A program made the position numbers and the translations under genes. A DNA stretch of 64,000 nucleotides from Clytia hemisphaerica (lineage: Eukaryota > Cnidaria > Hydrozoa > Leptothecata > Clytiidae): the NCBI GenBank assembly GCA_902728285.1, contig CACVBU010001193.1, positions 248,001 to 312,000 on the forward strand. Reading direction: 5' to 3'. Positions 37,452 to 51,860 of this stretch are shown piece after piece. Within the stretch, counting starts at the first letter, position 1. Each line of letters starts with the position of its first letter. The notes under the pieces were generated by a model, which saw only the letters and a program-made list of their open reading frames with translations, had not been told where the DNA came from and did no database searches.

Positions 37452-39828
37452 TCATTCTAGGAACTTTTCTAGTTTTTCAATACGTTCTTTGGTCTGTTCG
37501 GTGATTGTGGATGCACTATCCATGAGGACCAACCGTTGCAAAACTTCTAGCCCAATCTTGTGAGAATTGGGGTAGTATTGGTCCAAGACGTAAAACAATG
37601 AGATGTAAGAAATAACAGCAAGATCGTAATCTTTGAGTTGAAATCTGGAAATAATAATTCCATCTTTGTAAAGATACACATGATGTGTATCATGTAAGAA
37701 GACCAGATAATCACACTTGATACGTTTCGTAAGCTTTGCATCCTCACAATCCTGTAGAAGAGAAGAGAGCGAAAAACTAATTTAAAAATGGTTCAAATTG
37801 CAAAAGATCTGAAAAATCTGAATACATATTTTGACATAATTTGCACTCGTTCTTTGAACTCGTGAAAATTCCCTTTTCTCCTTTGTTACTAGCGAATAAT
37901 AGTTTATTACACTCCAAACCATGCTATTACTAGTACTAATCTGAGTGTCTGAGCAAAATTTTCAACAAAAATAAATTATTACCTCAACTTGAAAGACAAT
38001 TTGAGTGGCGGCGGGAGCTTTCTTTTTGCCTTTGCCTTTCTTTTCAGGAAATATCATTTCCATGTGTTCAATTAGACATGCCAGTTTGTTACCTAAAAAA
38101 TAAGATTAAAATCTCATGTTGGAAGAGTTTTACCTCCATGACAATCATATTTGGAAAATCACATCTTACAGGGCATTAAACCATTATAAACATTACCTAC
38201 CCCTTTTAGAAAATTAGTTAGGCGATGGCATGTTCTTAGTACTCAAAATTATAAATAGCTATGTAAAAAAGGATTACCTCTATCCCTCTATTACCAAGAC
38301 ATTTGGGGCAAAGAAAATTTAAAATCCCTAACACCGATATCTTGATACTTCTAAAAAACAATACCTATGTAATGGACTCCAAGGAATGTTTGAGAGGGGG
38401 AGAGTTGTAATCCCTTCTCTCGTTCTCAAGCTGGCTATAATACTAGAATAAAGACAATTTTGGCAATTTTTTGCAGCATTTTCGTTATGACTGTACGTCT
38501 CTACTCTAGGGTATTTGATGGAATATCTGCACCTGGTAATACTCTTTCAGAACAGCAATTGAAGCATTTGGTCAATTCAGAGGACTGGAACTACTATGTC
38601 CAAAGTACTAAAAATGGCAGAAATGGTCAAATATTGGAGAATTTGGCTTTGCATTGGATATTGGTGCATTACATATGCCTTCAAAGGTCAAACCCTGAAT
38701 TATAAGTTTACACTGTAGGATCTTAGGAAAACATTTCGTTTCTCTTTACACAAAGCAACAATCCAATACGAAGCCAAAATTTCCAGTATTTGACCATTTC
38801 TGTCAATTTTAGTTCTTTGGCCAACTTGGTTCATACTAGGTCCAGTCCCTTAAATTGCTTCAATTGCCGTTTTAAAAGAGTAGTACCAGGTGCAGATATT
38901 CAATTGATTTTCAAAAAATACACTAGAGTAGAGACATACGGTCATAACGAAAATAGTGCTGAAATTGTCTAAAATAAACCTACTGTGCTTCACCACTGTA
39001 GCAGCAGATAAGAGGCCTTCCTCTACTGCTTGGAAAAGTATCGGCTCCACCTTATTGTTGAGTCGGTCAACACATCCTTGCATATATGTAAGTGGAGGTT
39101 CTTTGTTTGATCCAATAACTCTGTGAGCTTCCTCAATAATCTAAATAAATAACACAATCTATGTACAAGTTGCTTTTGATATCTAAACAGAAGAATAAAG
39201 AGCAAACATAATACAATTCGAACTTGGATTAATTAAAGAAAATTAAAAAGGGAAAAGAAAACTTAATTCAATGAAAAACTGAAACATGGGCAAATCATAT
39301 GGTCTGAAATAGGTTTGTTAGGGAAGAATGAGACTTTTCCTGAGAAAAATTCTAGTAAAAAGTAACAAACTGGAAGAGCCTTTTATTCAGTCCCAGGACC
39401 AAATTACAGATCATACCAAAATAAAATCCCTCAGGGACGCTATGAAGCTTTTAAAATCATTTCATTTTATTCGTTGTATAGGATAGCACAGAAAAATAGC
39501 TTTTGCTGACAAAAAATAAAGTTGGCTGGCAAATTCAATAATTAATTTTTTTTCAGGCACTTTTGGTTAATAAACCACCTTAAAAAATTTAACAAACAAA
39601 ACTAACCTGAATGTGACTGGTTAGAAATATTGGGTATTTGTCGAACAAAAAGTTGGGTTCGATCCTTTTTCAGTTTTCGTAAAAATTCTCTGCGACTTTT
39701 AAAATCCAAGTCTAAGTACATGAACAAGGATTCTTGTTTTGGATTCTTTTTCTTCTGAAGTTTATCCAGGTAAGAGAAGTATCTTTCCTGCACGGAATTA
39801 TCCTCAGCTACATCACCAATCTCTTCAG
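37452..39828 (-). CDS. Unknown multi-exon gene, 3' part (five exons)
   Basis: Exons in transcript order are 39828-39607, 39439-39417 (23-nt microexon), 39140-38984, 38092-37983 and 37751-37452 (stop). All have GT-AG borders, and the phase series 1-1-0-1-0 is consistent, giving about 270 aa. Peptide landmarks are ERYFSYLDKLQKKKNPKQES, RREFLRKLKKDRTQLFVRQI, EPPLTYMQGCVDRLNNKVEP, a lysine-rich KKGKGKKKAP, and the C-terminal block CDYLVFLHDTHHVYLYKDGI then YISLFYVLDQYYP. The last block loosely resembles the C-terminal domain of SAM-domain proteins of the SAMD3-like group, but I do not claim orthology. Exons upstream of 39828 were not found. No signal peptide or membrane segment is seen. Confidence 0.6.
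38452..38970. mobile_element. Foldback element with arms of about 218 bp inside an intron
   Basis: 38452-38669 and 38752-38970 are inverted copies with scattered mismatches, separated by about 82 bp. Shared landmarks are TTTTCGTTATGAC, GTCTCTACTCTAG, AATATCTGCACCTGGTA, AGAAATGGTCAAATA and TTGGCTT. Almost the whole element is inverted repeat. It lies in the intron between exons 38984-39140 and 37983-38092 of the unknown gene, and its right arm ends only 14 bp inside the donor site. Confidence 0.8.
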
Positions 39829-41014
39829 CTGAAAAAATAAAATAATTTACAGATAAATGAAAGTTTATATATCAATACAAAGTTTTTCTTAATCATTTAT
39901 CGAAATTTGTTTAAGAATTGATAACGCATAAATAATCCCCACAGTTTGAAATATGCCAAATACTCTTGGGTACCTAATAGATGTTAGAAGAAATCTTCAT
40001 AAGCAGGTTGAAATAAAAATGCTCTAGGCGAGTAAAGGCTTATACCTGGGTGGAAATTTTCAATAAATCAATTACTGGGAACTAAATTGTTAGGTATCCG
40101 AGAATATGTTAAGAGAAATCAATAAGACCATTGTGCGGAAGGGGGCCTGATCCCTCTTCTTGTATCCCCCAACCTTGAAAAATGCCGACCCCCCAATATA
40201 CCTTAAAATTAGAGTTATTGATTTTTTTTCTTATAAAGAAAGTGCCTATAGAAAAAATAAATATGATCATATTCCACTTAGAACGTGAGTTATTGACCCT
40301 TTCTTCATTAAAAACTTTAGGTGCGCTAAACCTGGGAAAACAGATGTCAAAAAACTTGATTGGCTAAAACCCCGCGGTCTAAAATATTCCAAAAAATAAT
40401 TTTTTTTAAAATGAGGAATCGAATAAGTCAGTTAAGTATTGAAGGATTTATTTCCTTGATTCAAGTAACTAAATTATTGCATTTTGAAATTATTTCTTGA
40501 ATTAAGAGGAAATTTACTTAAAATAAGTAATCTTCAATATTACTTAAAAAATAGGTTTTTGCAGTGGAGAAATTTGCTTCTCTAATTGACCTAAATAGTT
40601 CTATTCTATTAAAGCTACAGGAACAAAATTACTTTTTAAAAGTTTTCATAAAGTAACTAAGCTAAAAAAATATGAAATAGACCAAATAGGTTCTTAAAAT
40701 GAGGTTAAACAACCTGAAAAAGTAGGATGTTTTAGCTTATACCTTCAAACTTAAACAACTGAACGAAAAACGTTTGAGGTATACTACGATAAAAAGTTAA
40801 CCTCAAAGATTTTTAATTCAGACTTAATTAAGACTTAAGCTTTACTTTTAAGCTCAGTATTGATATCAAAAACAGATTTATAAGTCATTAAAGTATACAA
40901 CAAAGAATTAAAAAACCCTATAAGCCCAATTCACAAATAACCTCACTTTTGGTACCCAAACTAAGATATTAACCTCATTTTTTCTACTTTACCTTGTTCC
41001 TCAACCATTGAATA

Positions 41015-42598
41015 ATGGATCCCACTATTTTTATCACACAATTTTCCCTTTTTATGAGGTTATCTGAAAGCTTAAAATCAACCCCTTTCTCAGGTACTTG
41101 TGTCTCTCAAGTTAATATACGAGACCCATCGAAAGCCACTGGCCCTGACAAGATACCATCTCGATTTCTAAAAGAATTTGCTCTTGAACTCACACCAGCA
41201 TTGACATTGTTCTTTGTAAACTCATTAAGCCAAGGAGATCTGCCATCTGATTGGCGTCATGCATTTATTGTACCAGTCTATAAAGGGAGTAACAAAGTAA
41301 GAAGTTCACCTGAGAGCTATCGTCCAATATCGCTTACATCAATCTGTTGCAAAGTAATGGAGCATATTATCTACAGTAGTATCATGAAACACCTAAACAA
41401 GAACAACATCCTATCTGACGAGCAACACGGTTTCCGAAACAACAGATCTTGTGAATCGCAACTCCTTATCACAGTCAACGACTTTACAGTAGGCTTGAAT
41501 GATAAACAACAAATTGACTCAATTTTGTTAGACTTTTCAAAAGCCTTTGATAAGGTAAACCACTACAAACTTGGTCTCAAGCTCAAGCATTATGGAATCA
41601 AAGGGAATTGCTTGAAATGGATCGTTTCATTTCTCAAAGATAGAACACAACAAGTTGTCCTAAACGGATCATTTTCTCAACCAGCTGATGTTCTGTCTGG
41701 CGTACCCCAGGGAACTGTTCTGGGGCCCCTTCTTTTTCTAATTTATGTAAACGACATGCCAGCTCTCCTACAGTCGTTACTGAGATTATTTGCAGATGAC
41801 GCATACTTGTATAGATGTATTAAATCAATTTCAGATATGTACCATCTCCAAGAAGATCTTGATAAACTGCAAACTTGGGAACGAAACTGGGACATGGAAT
41901 TCCACCCTCAAAAGTGTAAATTGTTATCAATCACAAACAAACTGAAGCCCATTTCAACCTCGTACACAATTCACGGTGAGGAGCTTGAATCCGTCGAATC
42001 GGCAAAGTATCTTGGTCTTACACTCCACAAAAAGTTGAGGTGGAACAAGCACGTTTCATCAATATGTACCAAAGCTCACCAGAAGAGATGTTTCTTACAG
42101 CGAACACTTCGTCGTTGTTCAAAGAAAGCAAAAATTCAAGCTTACAAGACGTATGTTCTGCCAATGATAATGTACGCATCTAGTGTATGGAATCCTACAG
42201 GTCCATCCAACTCTGGTCTGCGAGAGGAGCTTGAATCAGTCCAAAGAAAAGCAGCTCGTTTTGTGAATAGTGATTGGTCCTACGAGTCCAGCCCTACAGC
42301 AATGATCAAAAAACTTGAATGGATATCAACTGAACAACATCGCAAAATTGCCAGCATTATGATGCTTCACAAAATTATCAACAAAAACATTGCAATTCCT
42401 ATGACAATTTTGCCAAAGCATTCAAGAGATGGAAACAATTTCCAACAAAAATTAGGGAGAATTCTTGCTTACTCAAACTCATTTGTTCCCACTGTGACCA
42501 AATATTGGAATAAATTACCAAAACAAATTCGAACTATAACATCTGAAGATTCAATTAAATCAAAATTGTTAGAAGAGTTGTTGAAAAATAAACTTTGA
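41015..42598 (+). CDS. LINE reverse transcriptase (5'-truncated non-LTR retrotransposon, CR1/Jockey-like)
   Basis: 527-aa open frame; homology starts near residue 35 and the N-terminal leader is probably flanking DNA. Motifs in order: ATGPDKIPSRFLKEFA (41-56), SYRPISLTSI (101-110), DEQHGFRNNRSCESQLL (135-151), LLDFSKAFDKV (171-181, catalytic D173), SGVPQGTVLGPLLFLIYVND (228-247), and the FADD active site (259-262). The C-terminal region has VQRKAARFVNSDWSYESS and the KLPKQIRTI tail of CR1-like elements. The upstream endonuclease and ORF1 are missing, so it is a dead-on-arrival copy, yet the RT is uninterrupted, implying a fairly recent insertion. AATAAA at 42876 and a GATA repeat at 42957-42972 mark the 3' end. 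Confidence 0.92.
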   Translation: MDPTIFITQFSLFMRLSESLKSTPFSGTCVSQVNIRDPSKATGPDKIPSRFLKEFALELTPALTLFFVNSLSQGDLPSDWRHAFIVPVYKGSNKVRSSPESYRPISLTSICCKVMEHIIYSSIMKHLNKNNILSDEQHGFRNNRSCESQLLITVNDFTVGLNDKQQIDSILLDFSKAFDKVNHYKLGLKLKHYGIKGNCLKWIVSFLKDRTQQVVLNGSFSQPADVLSGVPQGTVLGPLLFLIYVNDMPALLQSLLRLFADDAYLYRCIKSISDMYHLQEDLDKLQTWERNWDMEFHPQKCKLLSITNKLKPISTSYTIHGEELESVESAKYLGLTLHKKLRWNKHVSSICTKAHQKRCFLQRTLRRCSKKAKIQAYKTYVLPMIMYASSVWNPTGPSNSGLREELESVQRKAARFVNSDWSYESSPTAMIKKLEWISTEQHRKIASIMMLHKIINKNIAIPMTILPKHSRDGNNFQQKLGRILAYSNSFVPTVTKYWNKLPKQIRTITSEDSIKSKLLEELLKNKL

Positions 42599-42972: not shown

Positions 42973-43749
42973 AGTTAACCTCACTTTTTATACCAAAATA
43001 TAATTTTTCATGTTTAGTTGTTTTTGATAATAGGCTACTGTTTGTCTGATATCCAAAATTAGACTGAAATATCATTGCTAACCTCACAATTAGGGTGTTT
43101 TTGTGAAATAACCTCAAATTTTACACCCTACTTGAAATGTTAACCTCATTTTTTCTAGCCTACCTTGTTGCCCAATCATTAAATAGTAAAACCCAATCAT
43201 TTATTTTTACTTTAACCTCACATTTCATACCAATTTTGGTCTATCTTTAAGGACCATTAGGTTAACCTCAGTGCAAGTTAACCTCATATTCTTAACCCTA
43301 CTTTAACCAAGAATATCTCTTTAAATTCAACACTTAACCTCTATAATGTATATATCATTGTGAACCTGAATAAATTTTGAGTAAAGTAGCAAATAAAAAT
43401 AAGTTAACCTCATTTATTTATCCTTTGTTAAAGTCAAAAAAGTTATTTTGAAAAAGTTAGGCGATTTTTGGGGGTTTTGACTTGAGATGGTCCATAATTA
43501 AAGAATATAAAGTTTAACTTACATTTTACACTTATCAGCAGATAACAGCCTCACATTTACTAATAGGATCATTAATGGCTAAAAGATCAGGCAAAAAAGA
43601 AAGAATCCAAACCTAAAAGAAAAATATCCCAATTTGTAGTATACTGTATACAACTTTTGAATTTAATATAACACTGGTGAGGGTGTTTCAATCAGATCTA
43701 TCAATGAAAACTCTTAAAATTTGAGAGAAAGATGAAATTGGATTTTTCA

Positions 43750-43890
43750 GGTGGGAGTTGGAAGGTTTTATAAATTCAGGTGGGGGTTGCCCAAGAAGGT
43801 GGGGGTTGAGTAGTCCTCAATTTTCAGGTAGGGGTAAGCCTATGCAGTTGAGGGTGACTTTTTTAGGTGGGGGTTGGAGGGGTGTTGCCC
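43750..43890 (+). repeat. Cluster of AGGTGGGGGTTG words
   Basis: Five approximate copies of (C/A)AGGTGGG(G)GTTG in about 140 bp, separated by 20-35 bp. G-rich on the plus strand. No ORF value; adjoins the broken integrase-region fragment. Confidence 0.5.
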
Positions 43891-44110
43891 ACTATGCTCA
43901 TACATGATCTTGTATAACTCTGTCGGAGGCACAATCTGATCTGTATTCTTTGTTTTCTTCAACAGGATTCCTTTCTCGTTGATCTTTAGTCTGTGAAAAT
44001 ACCGGCATCAGCCCTCTGCACTTTTTGGGCCATTGCTCCGTGATCTTTACTCTTGGGTTGATTCCTTGTTGTACTGTTTCATAGACTGACATGTTGGTAT
44101 TTCTCAGCTG
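43891..44110 (-). pseudogene. Retroelement fragment: region before the integrase and zinc-binding segment, frameshifted
   Basis: On the minus strand, one frame reads MSVYETVQQGINPRVKITEQ then WPKKCRGLMPVFSQ. After a frame change near 43990 the other frame reads RINEKGILLKKTKNTDQIVP then PTELYKIMYEH. This layout matches the linker before, and the start of, the H2C2 zinc-binding region of LTR-retrotransposon integrases. It is short, frameshifted and truncated, so non-functional. Confidence 0.5.
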
Positions 44111-44159
44111 GGCTGCTTTTAGGTCTTTAACATCATATATTGTCTGTCATGGGAATATT

Positions 44160-45975
44160 ATAGAGCAATTCGTTCGAGAAGCTGATCAGCGGCTTTGATT
44201 GGATTGTTATAAAACTGTCCATTACCCAAGTCAAACTCACTGTTTTGTTCTTTTAATACTTTTTGAGGATTTTTTAAGATTTGTTGATAAAGCGGTTTCT
44301 GTACTGCATTTTGGTAGAGTCGAAGCATAATCTCGTTCGAGAAGATGATCAGCGGCTTTGATTGGATTGTTATAAAACTGTCCATTACCCAAGTTAAACT
44401 TACTGTTTTGTTCTTTCAATACTTTTTGAGGATTTTTTAAGATTTGTTGATAAAACAGTTTCTGTGTACTGCATTTTGGTAGAGTCGAAGCATAATCTTG
44501 TTCGAGAAGCTGATCAGCGGATTTGATTGGATTGTTATAAAACTGTCCATTACCCAAGTTAAACTCACTGTTTTGTTCTTTTAATTCTTTTTGAGGATTT
44601 TTTAAGATTTGTTGATAAAACGGTTTCTGTGTACTGCATTTTGGTAGAGTCGAAGCATAATCTCGTTCGAGAAGCTGATCAGCGGCTTTGATTGGATTGT
44701 TATAAAACTGTCCATTACCCAAATTAAACTCACTGTTTTGTTATTTTTTTTAATACTTTTTGAGGATTTTTTAAGATTTGTTGATAAAGCGGTTTCTGTG
44801 TACTGCATTTTGGTAGAGTCGAAGCATAATCTTGTTCGAGAAGCTGATCAGCGGATTTGATTGGAAAGTTATAAAACTGTCCATTACCCAAGTTAAACTC
44901 ACTGTTTTGTTCTTTTAATTCTTTTTGAGGATTTTTTAAGATTTGTTGATAAAACGGTTTCTGTGTACTGCATTTTGGTAGAGTCGAAGCATAATCTCGT
45001 TCGAGAAGCTGATCAGCGGCTTTGATTGGATTGTTATAAAACTGTCCATTACCCAAGTTAAACTCACTGTTTTGTTATTTTTTTTAATACTTTTTGAGGA
45101 TTTTTTAAGATTTGTTGATAGAACGGTTTCTGTGTACTGCATTTTGGTAGAGTCGAAGCATAATCTCGTTCGAGAAGCTGATCAGCGGATTTGATTGGAT
45201 TTTTATAAAACTGTCCATTACCCAAGTTAAACTTACTGTTTTGTTCTTTCAATACTTTTTGAGGATTTTTTAAGATTTGTTGATAGAACGGTTTCTGTGT
45301 ACTGCATTTTGGTAGAGTCGAAGCATAATCTCGTTCGAGAAGCTGATCAGTGGATTTGATTGGATTGTTATAAAACTGTCCATTACCCAAGTTAAACTCA
45401 CTGTTTTGTTCTTTTAATACTTTTTGAGGATTTTTTAAGATTTGTTGATAAAGCGGTTTCTGTGTACTGCATTTTGGTAGAGTCGAAGCATAATCTCGTT
45501 CGAGAAGCTGATCAGCGGCTTTGATTGGATTGTTATAAAACTGTCCATTACCCAAGTTAAACTTACTGTTTTGTTCTTCCAATACTTTTTGAGGGTTTTT
45601 TAAGATTTGTTGATAAAGCGGTTTCTGTGTACTGCATTTTGGTAGAGTCGAAGCATAACCTCGTTCGAGAAGATGATCAGCGGCTTTGATTGGATTGTTA
45701 TAAAACTGTCCATTACCCAAGTTAAACTCACTGTTTTGTTATTATAATACTTTTTGAGGATTTTTTAAGATTTGTTGATAAAGCGGTTTCTGTGTACTGC
45801 ATTTTGGTAGAGTCGAAGCATAATCTCGTTCGAGAAGATGATCAGCGGCTTTGATTGGATTGTTATAAAACTGTCCATTACCCAAGTTAAACTCACTGTT
45901 TTGTTCTTTTAATACTTTTTGAGGGTTTTTTAAGATTTGTTGATAAAGCGGTTTCTGTGTACTGCATTTTGTTGG
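44160..45975 (-). repeat. 165-bp tandem array (11 copies), open as a 55-residue protein repeat on the minus strand
   Basis: The GATCAGCGG landmark recurs at 44184, 44347, 44512, 44677, 44846, 45011, 45180, 45345, 45510, 45675 and 45840, so the unit is 165 bp. Exceptions are two 169-bp units with an expanded T run (about 44745 and 45079) and one 163-bp unit. In one minus frame every unit is open and reads about LGNGQFYNNPIKAADQLLER, then DYASTLPKCSTQKPLYQQIL, then KNPQKVLKEQNSEFN. Length changes of 4 and 2 bp break the long frame into segments 45720-45064, 45056-44730 and 44722-44237. Copies differ by a few substitutions. Family unknown; it sits inside a decayed retroelement area. Confidence 0.9.
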
Positions 45976-46240
45976 TATCCTTGAAGATCAATTTAGATAG
46001 TTCGTATTTATCGGATTTTACGACCAACTAGGATTTTGAGCCTTTAGGGAAATATCCGAGGTATGGACCGATTCTCTGATTCTTTGCCCACCATTCCAGA
46101 AGAGATTCAAGTTGACCAGCTGCACTAAAATCTTCATCATACGCGACTTGGTTGGCGTCCTTCGAACTGATGCTTTCTAGCAAGGGGATGAGAGCGTAGA
46201 GCGGTATTGCTACTGGGTCCTCTTGAAATTTCATAGCCAC
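45976..46240 (-). pseudogene. Reverse transcriptase fragment, degenerate active site
   Basis: The minus frame reads DPVAIPLYALIPLLESISS, VAYDEDFSAAGQLESLLEWW and GPYLGYFPKGSKS, then a stop, then LVVKSDKYELSKLIF. This is the catalytic and downstream region of a retroelement RT seen in invertebrates, where YADD normally precedes the SAAG motif. Here it is YDED, with an in-frame stop after GSKS. The fragment runs straight into the 165-bp array. Confidence 0.6.
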
Positions 46241-49200
46241 CAGTGATGAAGAGTCGCGAATTTGACGAATTTGACAAAAAAGGTGTTACTGATGAAGGTC
46301 GCAATTTCAGGGCAGATTATTTGTACGTTTTATGAATCATCGCTCCTAATTTTCGCGGTAGACACCCAAAAACGCGAAAATTAGTTCCCTTAAGGTATAA
46401 GGGGCGGTTTCACGTTTTGCGGAGGAGCAGAATCATGCCTTTTTTCGGGCGGAGTGGCTGAAATTGACGAAAATTTGGACGGGATTCTGGAAATTAGGTC
46501 CTATGTCGACGGAAAATTGGTCTGTTTCATTCGGGAAAAACGACATTAGGCGATCGGAGTTTCGGAATTTGGAAAAAAAATATTCTAGAATTGTGGAATT
46601 TTTTGACTGAAATCGATAACTTTAAAGTAATTTTCGATTGCGGAATTTTTGTGCTAATTCAGACGGTTTGACGGAATTTAAGGAAAAGATTGAGGGTATG
46701 GTGGAATCGGGTACCTCTTAAAACCACCCCCCCTTCCGTTATAGTAATGGTCATGATGTTTTTGTGTCTTATTCGGCATTGAATTGGTTTTTCTTGACAA
46801 GGTTGAACTGCTATCCACTGTTCACTAATAGATCTTTTTTTGGGGTACGAATTGAAATAAACAACATTGTTGTTGCTCGCATTTCAATATACCTTATTTT
46901 AGATACAATAAGGGCATTAAAGTTTGCATTTAAAGTTTTGTCTCTGTTCGTCAAAATGATGGATATGAGAAAGATAGGTTTTTCTTCTTCTTAAGTCGAA
47001 ACAGTAGGAGGTGGGCGTTCCGTCCCGCATCGTAGGGAAAGCTACATACCTGAATGATTGATGATGTAGTTCACCCTTAATGACTTAATGATAGAGCTTT
47101 AATAATCCCATTATGCTTTCAATCAAATTGTAATAAAAACTATAACGAAACTATTACAATCAAGAGTAAAAATCAATGATTAATTCGATTTTATCTTTTA
47201 AGTGGGTGGGTTTTACTAAATTTTACGAGTATTTGCGTCAATGATTCATTTAGTAGTCATTTTAGTTGCTATAGCACAACGGCTTTCGTTTTATTGGAGT
47301 ATTGGGTGGCTGATCATTTCTTGCGCAATACACGCCAACTCAATCCCTTCCTTCTCCTTGCATAATATAACCTTTCCACAAAATTTACCATAAATACCTC
47401 AGAATAATAACTATTTATTGGTGGGGAGACGAATATTTACATCAATTTATTTTAATGAACGGTATTTCTGTTCTGTATATTGGACTGACGAAAAATAATT
47501 CAGCAAGATATGCCAATAATCTATTTTTGCATAAACGGTGGTCTGTGAAAACAAACATTTAGGGAAATTCGGGAAACATTATATTTCAGTTACGAGATTC
47601 ATAAAGCTTCTCTACAGTTTTTGGTCCTCCTCTGTACTGTGCAAAAATGCTGTAACGTTATGACATTTTTGTCTTTTTTCAAAAAGAGAGTTTCTTTGTA
47701 TTGCTATTCAAGACCGACTTTCCTCGTATGACCATTTCAAGGGTTGACTTTGCAAATTATTATTGAGATCCCGATTGAGATCTTACAATTTCGTAATATA
47801 GACCTTCGCGGTCAAATGATAAAGTTGATCGTTAATTTTCCCTTTGTTATGAAAAAATACCAATTGAATCTTTGCGAATTACTTTGGTACCAAAAATGCT
47901 TGGATAATAATGTTATTAATTTATAATAGGTAGGTGATTATCACAGCAAATTGAATTAAGCATTTCAAGGTATTGTTGAAAATTGCTTTTTTGCTAATTG
48001 GATTGAAAAGTTGGTCACATTGCCAAATTCATGGTCATTAAGTCATTACACTTTTAAGTATACTGCACATTAAAGCGCATTTATAATCATTAGCAAAAAA
48101 ATGCCAAACTTTTACTAAAATGCAAAAATGCAGCTCTAATTTTGCTGCTCCAGTATCAAATTGAACATGCTTTTAATGGCTTTCCATTGGACAATTTGAT
48201 CACATGACGACTAGTTTCATCGGTTTCATCAACGGTTACAGAAGGTGCTCAAAAAAATTTTATGGAGAGCAATTATTCCCATAAAAGAAATAATGACAAA
48301 AGAAACTCTCTCCGCCGTTTAGTGAAAGTACCTTTTGCAACCGCGTTTGTTGTTGCATTTATTTCCCTCTTTTTCTTTTTGTCAAAAAACATTGAAAGGA
48401 CTTTACATACTTCAAACATGACGCAAAAATGAAACCTCTTTGAAATTGTCCCAAGCTATCTTCTTAACTTTGCTTAAAAAACTCAAAGATATTGAATATA
48501 AGTTTTCTTTGTAATACTAACTATTTGGGATTCTTAATGAGTTATGAGGTATAGTTAACAAGTTTTCGAAAAGCTTTTGATCGGATAGCTTACACCAGAC
48601 GTCACGGTAACGTCTATTCTACGACTTTTTCGAATGTTTGGAGCCCAGGTTTTGGGGCCTAAATTTTCAACTTTTTGACATCACTTTAAAATTTCGGAGC
48701 TCTTGAAGCGAAAAAAATCAGATTTGCGTCAACACTCTAGTGAAAGTCTTCTTTTTCCCCGAAAATCATATCATCATAAAATCAAAAGTAGAACTCACCA
48801 AGAAATTCTTTTGGTGAGGTAATCGCAAACTGATTCAAAAAAAACTTGAAACATTGAGGGCTAAGTGAAGCAAGTCATGGAATGGCTTTGTGATCAATTT
48901 GAATCACTCCATCACCACTTTTCAATAAGTTTTTATGGGACTTTTTTTGTGTTCAACCAACTGTCTTTTCTGTGCTGTTTATATTATGTCAAACGACTGA
49001 TTTGGTTGCTTGTCAAGATCACCCGAGTAACTAATTCGGCTAATCGGTCGCCAGGAAACCCCGATGAGCGCACAATTTAGTTCATACAGTGAGAAACTTG
49101 TTAAAATACTACGAACAGAACACTAATTACGCTGACGGCTGGGTTAAATATGTGCCCCTTTATAAAACTCAATTGACCACGGCCTTTCGTTTATTTACGA

Positions 49201-50891: not shown

Positions 50892-51860
50892 CCAGGGGGG
50901 GGTCAGTGTACCAGAAGGTGGCATGTATCCTGGGGTGGGTGGGTGTTTGAGAAAAAAATTTGTCATGTACTACCTGTGTACTATAATTGGGGTGTTGGGT
51001 CCAAACTCGATTTTGATTTTTACTACCTGTGTACCAAAATAGGGGTGTTAGGTCCAAAATTGATTTTGATTTTTACTACCTGTGTACCAAAATAGGGGTG
51101 TTGGGTCCAAAATCGATTTTGATTTTTACTACCTGTGTTCCAAAATAGGGGTGTTGGGTCCAAAATCGATGTTAACAGTGTGGAAACAAAAAGGTTAAGA
51201 AATTATCTGCTAAAATAGAAATGTAAAGTTGTTCTATTATAAATTGATCAAGCCAAGTTTGTCCAAGATCATTCTTCCAAACTTCTTGGAATGAATTGAA
51301 ATCCTACCAGATCCCACTGAAATGAAGGTTTATCGAGTCAATGTAAACATTTGAACATTTGAATTCAAACATTCAACATTCGTACATTAGAGGTGCCAAC
51401 TTTCACGCATTGGGTGTGAGACTCATGCATTTCTACATGGTCTCACGTAATTTTTGAAAAGTTTGATTTCTCACCCATTTTGGATTTTTTAGAAAAATTT
51501 TACTGTTTTTCCGATTTTTGGAAAAAAGTTTTCCCAATTTCCCGATTTCCCAATTTTCCGAAAAATAGTTTTCCCGATTTCCCGATTTTTGGAAAAATGT
51601 TTACCCGATTTTCCGATTTTCGGAAAAAAGTTTCTCTATTTTCCGGATTTTTCAAGGTAGTACCCGGTAGTAAATGGGGGGTATGGGTTGGTTTTGGTTT
51701 TTTACCAGGTACTACCTGGGTAGTAAATAGGGGGTATGGGGTGGTTTTGGGATTTTTCCATGTAGTATGGTGTACTTCAGGGGTGGGTGGGTGTCAAGTT
51801 TTGAAAAATACCTTGTAGTACACATACATGCCGCCTTCTAGTACACTGACCCCCCCCTGG
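50892..51860. mobile_element. 969-bp inverted-repeat element, TSD GTAGT
   Basis: Direct repeats GTAGT at 50887-50891 and 51861-51865. The ends match as inverted repeats over 37 bp with 2 mismatches (CCAGGGGGGGGTCAGTGTAC, then C/TAGAAGG(T/C)GGCATGTAT). The interior has a 53-bp tandem repeat, a run of TTCCCGATTT(C/T)CCGATTTT words (51535-51650), and repeated TAGTAAATGGGGGGTATGGG. No transposase. Confidence 0.8.
50968..51172 (+). repeat. 53-bp tandem repeat, four copies
   Basis: TACCTGTGTAC starts at 50971, 51024, 51077 and 51130, exactly 53 bp apart. Each unit is TACCTGTGTACCAAAATAGG, then GGTGTTGGGTCCAAAATCGA, then TTTTGATTTTTAC, with few substitutions. Lies inside the 969-bp element. Confidence 0.85.

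Follow-up and report, generated by a model that had tools for sequence, protein, structure and literature searches.

A probable minisatellite made from a gene exon fragment among transposon debris in Clytia hemisphaerica

The array and its surroundings

The DNA analysed here is a stretch of 64,000 nucleotides of the hydrozoan Clytia hemisphaerica, which we call the window. It contains a head-to-tail array, located by TRF, whose extent, units and flanking features are collected in Table 1. A preliminary description, made from the sequence alone, had reported a 165-bp array of about eleven copies, and the TRF result agrees with it. The period of exactly 55 codons given in that description holds for the eight units (out of eleven) that have exactly 165 bases, but not for the two units of 169 bases, u6 and u8, nor for the partial last one, u11. 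The consensus of the unit's frame on the minus strand is CSTQKPLYQQILKNPQKVLKEQNSEFNLGNGQFYNNPIKAADQLLERDYASTLPK. It was said to be open in every copy, but this is the case for seven units only (u1, u3, u4, u5, u7, u9 and u10), the frame being broken in u2, u6, u8 and u11. The array is therefore not a series in which every unit is open and in frame, as a repeat protein would have it. What it does have are the features of a minisatellite or satellite, that is, units placed head to tail, highly identical among themselves and with common variants spread among them. The genome search found the array only once in the 417-Mb assembly.

Table 1. Coordinates of the array, its units and the neighbouring features in the window.
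Feature	Position	Strand	Remarks
Tandem array	44170-45971	minus	TRF: period 165 bp, 10.9 copies, 95% matches
Unit u1	45966-45802	minus	open
Unit u2	45801-45637	minus	two stops
Unit u3	45636-45472	minus	open
Unit u4	45471-45307	minus	open
Exon-derived part (example, u4)	45322-45471	minus	150 bp; in-frame homologue of exon 1 codons 22-71
Junction part (example, u4)	45307-45321	minus	15 bp, TCGACTCTACCAAAA
Unit u5	45306-45142	minus	open
Unit u6	45141-44973	minus	169 bp; 4-base insert and frame break
Unit u7	44972-44808	minus	open
Unit u8	44807-44639	minus	169 bp; 4-base insert and frame break
Unit u9	44638-44474	minus	open
Unit u10	44473-44309	minus	open
Unit u11	44308-44170	minus	partial; 2 bases lost, truncated
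RT-encoding element fragment	45972-46345	minus	broken at the array boundary; relatives in C224, C805 (two), C39 and C879
Spacer, Ty3-like fragment to array	44136-44169		34 bp
Ty3-like element fragment	43898-44135	minus	different element; relatives in C628, C810 and C265
Dispersed repeat	43600-43896		abuts the integrase-region fragment; copies up to 95% identical; 43600 is the query start and the repeat may reach further left

An open frame of this length had been considered unexpected for a random satellite. When random 165-base pieces of the window were closed into a circle, 6109 of 19323 had at least one open frame among the six, and with such frames so common by chance an open frame counts for little by itself. 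In codon usage the array frame scores 6.9, which is also below the 90th percentile (7.2) of the 3623 open pieces lying outside the main ORFs. What does stand above chance is that ten gene copies in other parts of the genome are 78-83% identical to the unit (E 6.5e-27 to 3.0e-36).

The array had been placed between fragments of a reverse transcriptase (RT) and of an integrase region, and the relatives of both flanks elsewhere in the genome bear this out. Pfam was run on five ORFs of these relatives, of which three were matched and two were without match; RVT_1 was found in locus L039 (E 1.6e-7) and Integrase_H2C2 in L045 (E 5.8e-13), where rve_3 is matched as well. The left fragment corresponds to the part of a Ty3-like element between RNase H and integrase, plus the start of the integrase zinc-binding part. 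As for the window's own pieces, the RT piece has no Pfam match and no confirmed match in IMG/VR, and the integrase-region pieces have no Pfam match or one at chance level.

Other repeats are found in the neighbourhood. The segment 46401-46751 comes from a dispersed repeat that is abundant, with copies about 75% identical, and to it belong 34 of the best 40 of 815 candidates for the right-flank query. An open ORF of 528 aa with an RVT_1 reverse transcriptase domain occupies 41012-42598 on the plus strand, nested inverted repeats with arms of 52-72 bp that are 79-88% complementary, which we take to be MITE-like, lie at 38457-38975, and a 53-bp tandem repeat of 3.8 copies lies at 50968-51170. Among the relatives of the flanks, L040:1174-8167 (C805) is apparently a large inverted repeat, whose two arms have their ORFs and RT fragments in common.

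The repeat unit and exon 1 of a gene family

The genome searched comprises 417 Mb in 951 contigs. The whole array gave 26 places, namely itself and 25 others, and one unit gave 27 matches, of which 11 are in the array (95-100% identity), ten are at 78-83% and six at 71-74%. The ten matches at 78-83%, which span unit bases 16/17-165 as given on the plus strand (150 of 165 bases), are the ten nearest genes and will be called group A. In the seven loci that were read (L002-L008) the homologue is always in the frame of the array, inside a long ORF starting MASRF. The exon-1 segment is in frame in all ten group A genes, and its translation is without stop in 29 of 29 loci, these ten included. The array is thus an in-frame homologue of exon 1 of a nuclease/NTPase-like gene family, and on the minus strand 50 of the unit's 55 codons are read as in the original gene. 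The earlier proposal of an expanded protein segment was correct in that the unit derives from protein-coding sequence, but not in assigning that segment to a retroelement, since the unit is in none of the seven loci read with relatives of the flanks.

In the ten nearest genes the unit segment is single, one of them having also a second, partial copy 540 bases upstream. In a tree built with six of the open units, these form one branch (support 0.93) and stand together with group A against the other genes (0.93). No copy more than 83% identical was found outside the array in the assembly, so that the gene of origin is either missing, extinct or left out of the assembly. At a threshold of E <= 1, neither the start of exon 1 nor exons 2 and 3 are matched anywhere in the window, and for this reason a working gene of the family at the array is not supported.

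The comparison with the genes also accounts for the length of the unit. Its minus-strand bases 1-150 are codons 22-71 of exon 1. Past codon 71 the gene at L013 reads GCT GATTCAGCACTTT TCGACTCTACC whereas the unit reads GCT TCGACTCTACC, so that 13 bases have been lost, and this frame-shifting deletion is present in 10 of 10 complete units. The junction consists of 11 bases of downstream exon 1, which are no longer in the frame of the gene, and of AAAA, behind which the next unit starts. Four of the seven genes read have exactly the 11 bases that come after the deletion, and the remaining three deviate from them at one or two positions. Judging from this alignment, 50 codons of the open 55-codon frame are inherited from the exon, and the other five are accidental, made by the junction. 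About 1 in 4 junctions of 15 bases should be free of stops and leave the unit length divisible by three (0.745 x 1/3); since the 15 bases are a junction behind a frame-shifting deletion, the 55-codon period was closed by luck.

The join between the exon fragment and the RT element can be located as well. At the break, the window reads GATACCAACAAAATGCAG and the genes read GATCCAACAAACTGCAG or GATCCAACGAATTGCAG; the RT element reads GATACCAATATC in L039, GATACCAATTTC in both copies of L040 and GATATCAATATC in L042. The bases CCAA are common to the RT element and the genes and therefore mark the join. In L039, L040 and L042 the RT reads on through the site that is occupied by the array in the window. 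The unit and exons 1-3 are absent from all seven loci with relatives of the flanks (L039-L045; 5 + 3 relatives), these having been taken from the best 40 of 815 candidates on the right and the best 40 of 192 on the left.

The gene family itself is large. With exon 1 as protein query, 143 matches were obtained, 11 of them in the array and 132 outside, and the latter merge into at least 121 places on 84 contigs (E <= 0.001; weakest E 5e-4). The gene at L013 (5060-8179), predicted from ORFs and splice-like borders only, would have three exons of 210, 310 and 235 codons with GT-AG borders, and in four of four members listed (L031, L033, L034 and L037) exons 1 and 2 form one ORF of 542-581 aa. Besides its complete exon 1, the member L015 (C89) has a partial second copy limited to codons 1-55 (L015:5581-5417), which lies about 540 bases further upstream. 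Exon 2 contains a P-loop (Pfam Bac_DnaA, 24.0 bits versus a cut-off of 23) and a D...EIK pattern, which is presumably a PD-(D/E)XK motif; the nuclease models HSDR_N_2, NucS_C and PDDEXK_4 are matched below their cut-offs. The matches in PADLOC were weak: the P-loop end of the L031 ORF is matched by RTasNERD-Hel (7.8e-7), and the nuclease-like part of L013 exon 2 by PDC-S26 (2.4e-4), Nhi (0.0022) and AbiO (0.0029). These weak Pfam and PADLOC matches would agree with a protein in which a nuclease is combined with an NTPase or helicase. A family profile of nine ORFs (four that span exons 1 and 2 and five from exon 2 only) gave no confirmed match in IMG/VR and three weak ones in PDB, the best being DnaA (E 0.0094). 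In the libraries used, the family has no clear named relative and its 210-codon N-terminal part has no known match. We think that a large gene family of this kind is a more interesting lead than the array and deserves a study of its own.

The repeat had not been recognised in the preliminary description, and the search for a protein match to the 55-aa unit in outside collections gave nothing convincing either. There were no matches in PDB or among phages. In Pfam no family was matched by one unit, and ORFs of two or three units gave matches only below the curated cut-offs; in PHROGs one unit gave none and longer ORFs gave weak ones. The 21 pattern matches in IMG/VR and the 82 in prokaryote genomes were not confirmed. 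A single plasmid match, at E 8, was taken as chance.

Changes between units and growth of the array

A recount from the alignment, with gaps set explicitly, gave 4 synonymous and 16 non-synonymous changes between units, two neighbouring changes in u7 being counted apart. In the absence of selection 20-28% of the changes should be synonymous, and the 4 out of 20 observed agree with this (binomial p 1.0 for an expectation of 20% and 0.80 for 25%), so that the synonymous bias by which a protein repeat might have been recognised does not appear. The NG86 means over 50 codons of the seven open units (out of eleven) are dS 0.047, dN 0.042 and dN/dS 0.88, for which the bootstrap gives a lower bound of 0.26 and an undefined upper one; with six units the ratio is 0.83. 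By the same method, dS is 0.316 and dN 0.034 within group A, a ratio of 0.107 (bootstrap 0.04-0.22), and dS is 0.847 and dN 0.135 from the array to group A, a ratio of 0.16 (0.06-0.29). For the array branch the three-point method puts dN/dS at 0.31, the bootstrap range being very wide (0.05 to undefined); branch estimates are rough because group B distances are saturated at synonymous sites.

Between the array and group A, 3 synonymous and 10 non-synonymous differences are fixed, a count that under-records synonymous sites because group A varies there. Their ratio does not differ from that within the array (Fisher p 1.0), and hence they do not show a constrained stem. On the whole, change between units looks neutral, and mild constraint is compatible with the dN/dS bound of 0.26.

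The variants also tell something about how the array has grown. A change of G to T at unit base 61, which turns GAA into the stop TAA, is common to u2, u6 and u8, which are not adjacent. Two of these three carriers, u6 and u8, share in addition four extra bases, the expansion that the preliminary description had noticed in two units. There are 2 differences between u7 and u9 and 3 between u6 and u8, and from these likenesses the pairs u6-u7 and u8-u9 seem to go back to a single duplication. As the stop is common to three units, copying went on after the frame was broken.

Interpretation and comparison with known systems

We think that the array is very probably a minisatellite made from a fragment of a gene exon and lying in transposon debris. 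This reading is built on what can be read in the DNA itself, namely the origin of the unit, its frame, the deletion, the shared stop, the identity of the flanks and a pattern of change that fits neutrality. The array would read like a protein because its unit was once part of a gene, and it is probably without coding function of its own. The starting material may have been codons 22 to 79 of exon 1, from a family member that the searches of the assembly did not recover. Next to the remains of a Ty3-like element, this fragment would have been attached to a broken RT element at the CCAA that both have in common; the sequence itself shows the join, and microhomology repair or a template switch may have produced it. 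The 13-base deletion together with a duplication junction would have created the 165-base head-to-tail unit, and unequal exchange or slippage could have brought it to 11 copies, a process that would have continued past the break of the frame. In our opinion, the array illustrates how a repeat unit born from an exon can pass for a mysterious protein.

A different history, in which a gene of the family had its N-terminal segment expanded in frame into a repeat protein and later decayed, comes close to the decaying repeat-protein gene that had been put forward earlier. It would explain the period that is a multiple of three and the seven open units out of eleven, and the partial second exon 1 of L015 indicates that duplications do occur in this part of the gene. 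We consider it quite unlikely, however, given that the last five codons are out of the gene frame behind the 13-bp deletion, that the ten nearest genes have the segment once, that the other exons and the exon-1 start were not found in the window, that copying continued after the shared stop and that the changes have no synonymous bias.

In fruit flies, tandem gene fragments at Su(Ste) give rise to small silencing RNAs, and the Clytia array, with its tandem gene fragments among transposon scraps and its exact stretches of 20-32 bases in common with 10 of 10 group A genes, might be taken as a young silencing locus, whose small RNAs would match these genes and damp the nuclease-like family. This seems to us very improbable, as the overall identity to the family is only 78-83% and nothing in the sequence requires a small-RNA role. 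That the array is a segment of a flanking retroelement, as its position directly between RT and integrase-region fragments of the same orientation had suggested, is extremely doubtful, because the two flanks come from different elements, the unit and exons 1-3 were found in none of the seven loci described above, and the RT is continuous across the site in three of them.

Returning to the exon-derived minisatellite, arrays of satellite or minisatellite type derived from gene or transposon fragments are a known kind in general. The Clytia array resembles them in being head to tail, with units about 95% alike and variants spread among them. Change within it looks neutral, with a dN/dS bound that leaves room for mild constraint. 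It differs from them generally in that its source is an exon of a multigene family, recognisable at 78-83%, and in being the sole array found. In a narrow search of open-access papers, we could not name an identical case, and the available portion of PMC8122249 has no mention of satellites made from exons. The Helentron-borne arrays of the Pacific oyster (PMC7492417) are comparable as short satellite-like arrays. Theirs are dispersed in the genome, whereas an array multiplied together with a mobile element is not what is seen in Clytia, where one array is present in the genome and no repeated carrier element was found. Tandem copies related to a protein-coding repeated family are also a feature of Stellate and Suppressor of Stellate. 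The Clytia array is set apart from that system (PMC8412255) by an identity to its family of about 80% and by being known from sequence alone.
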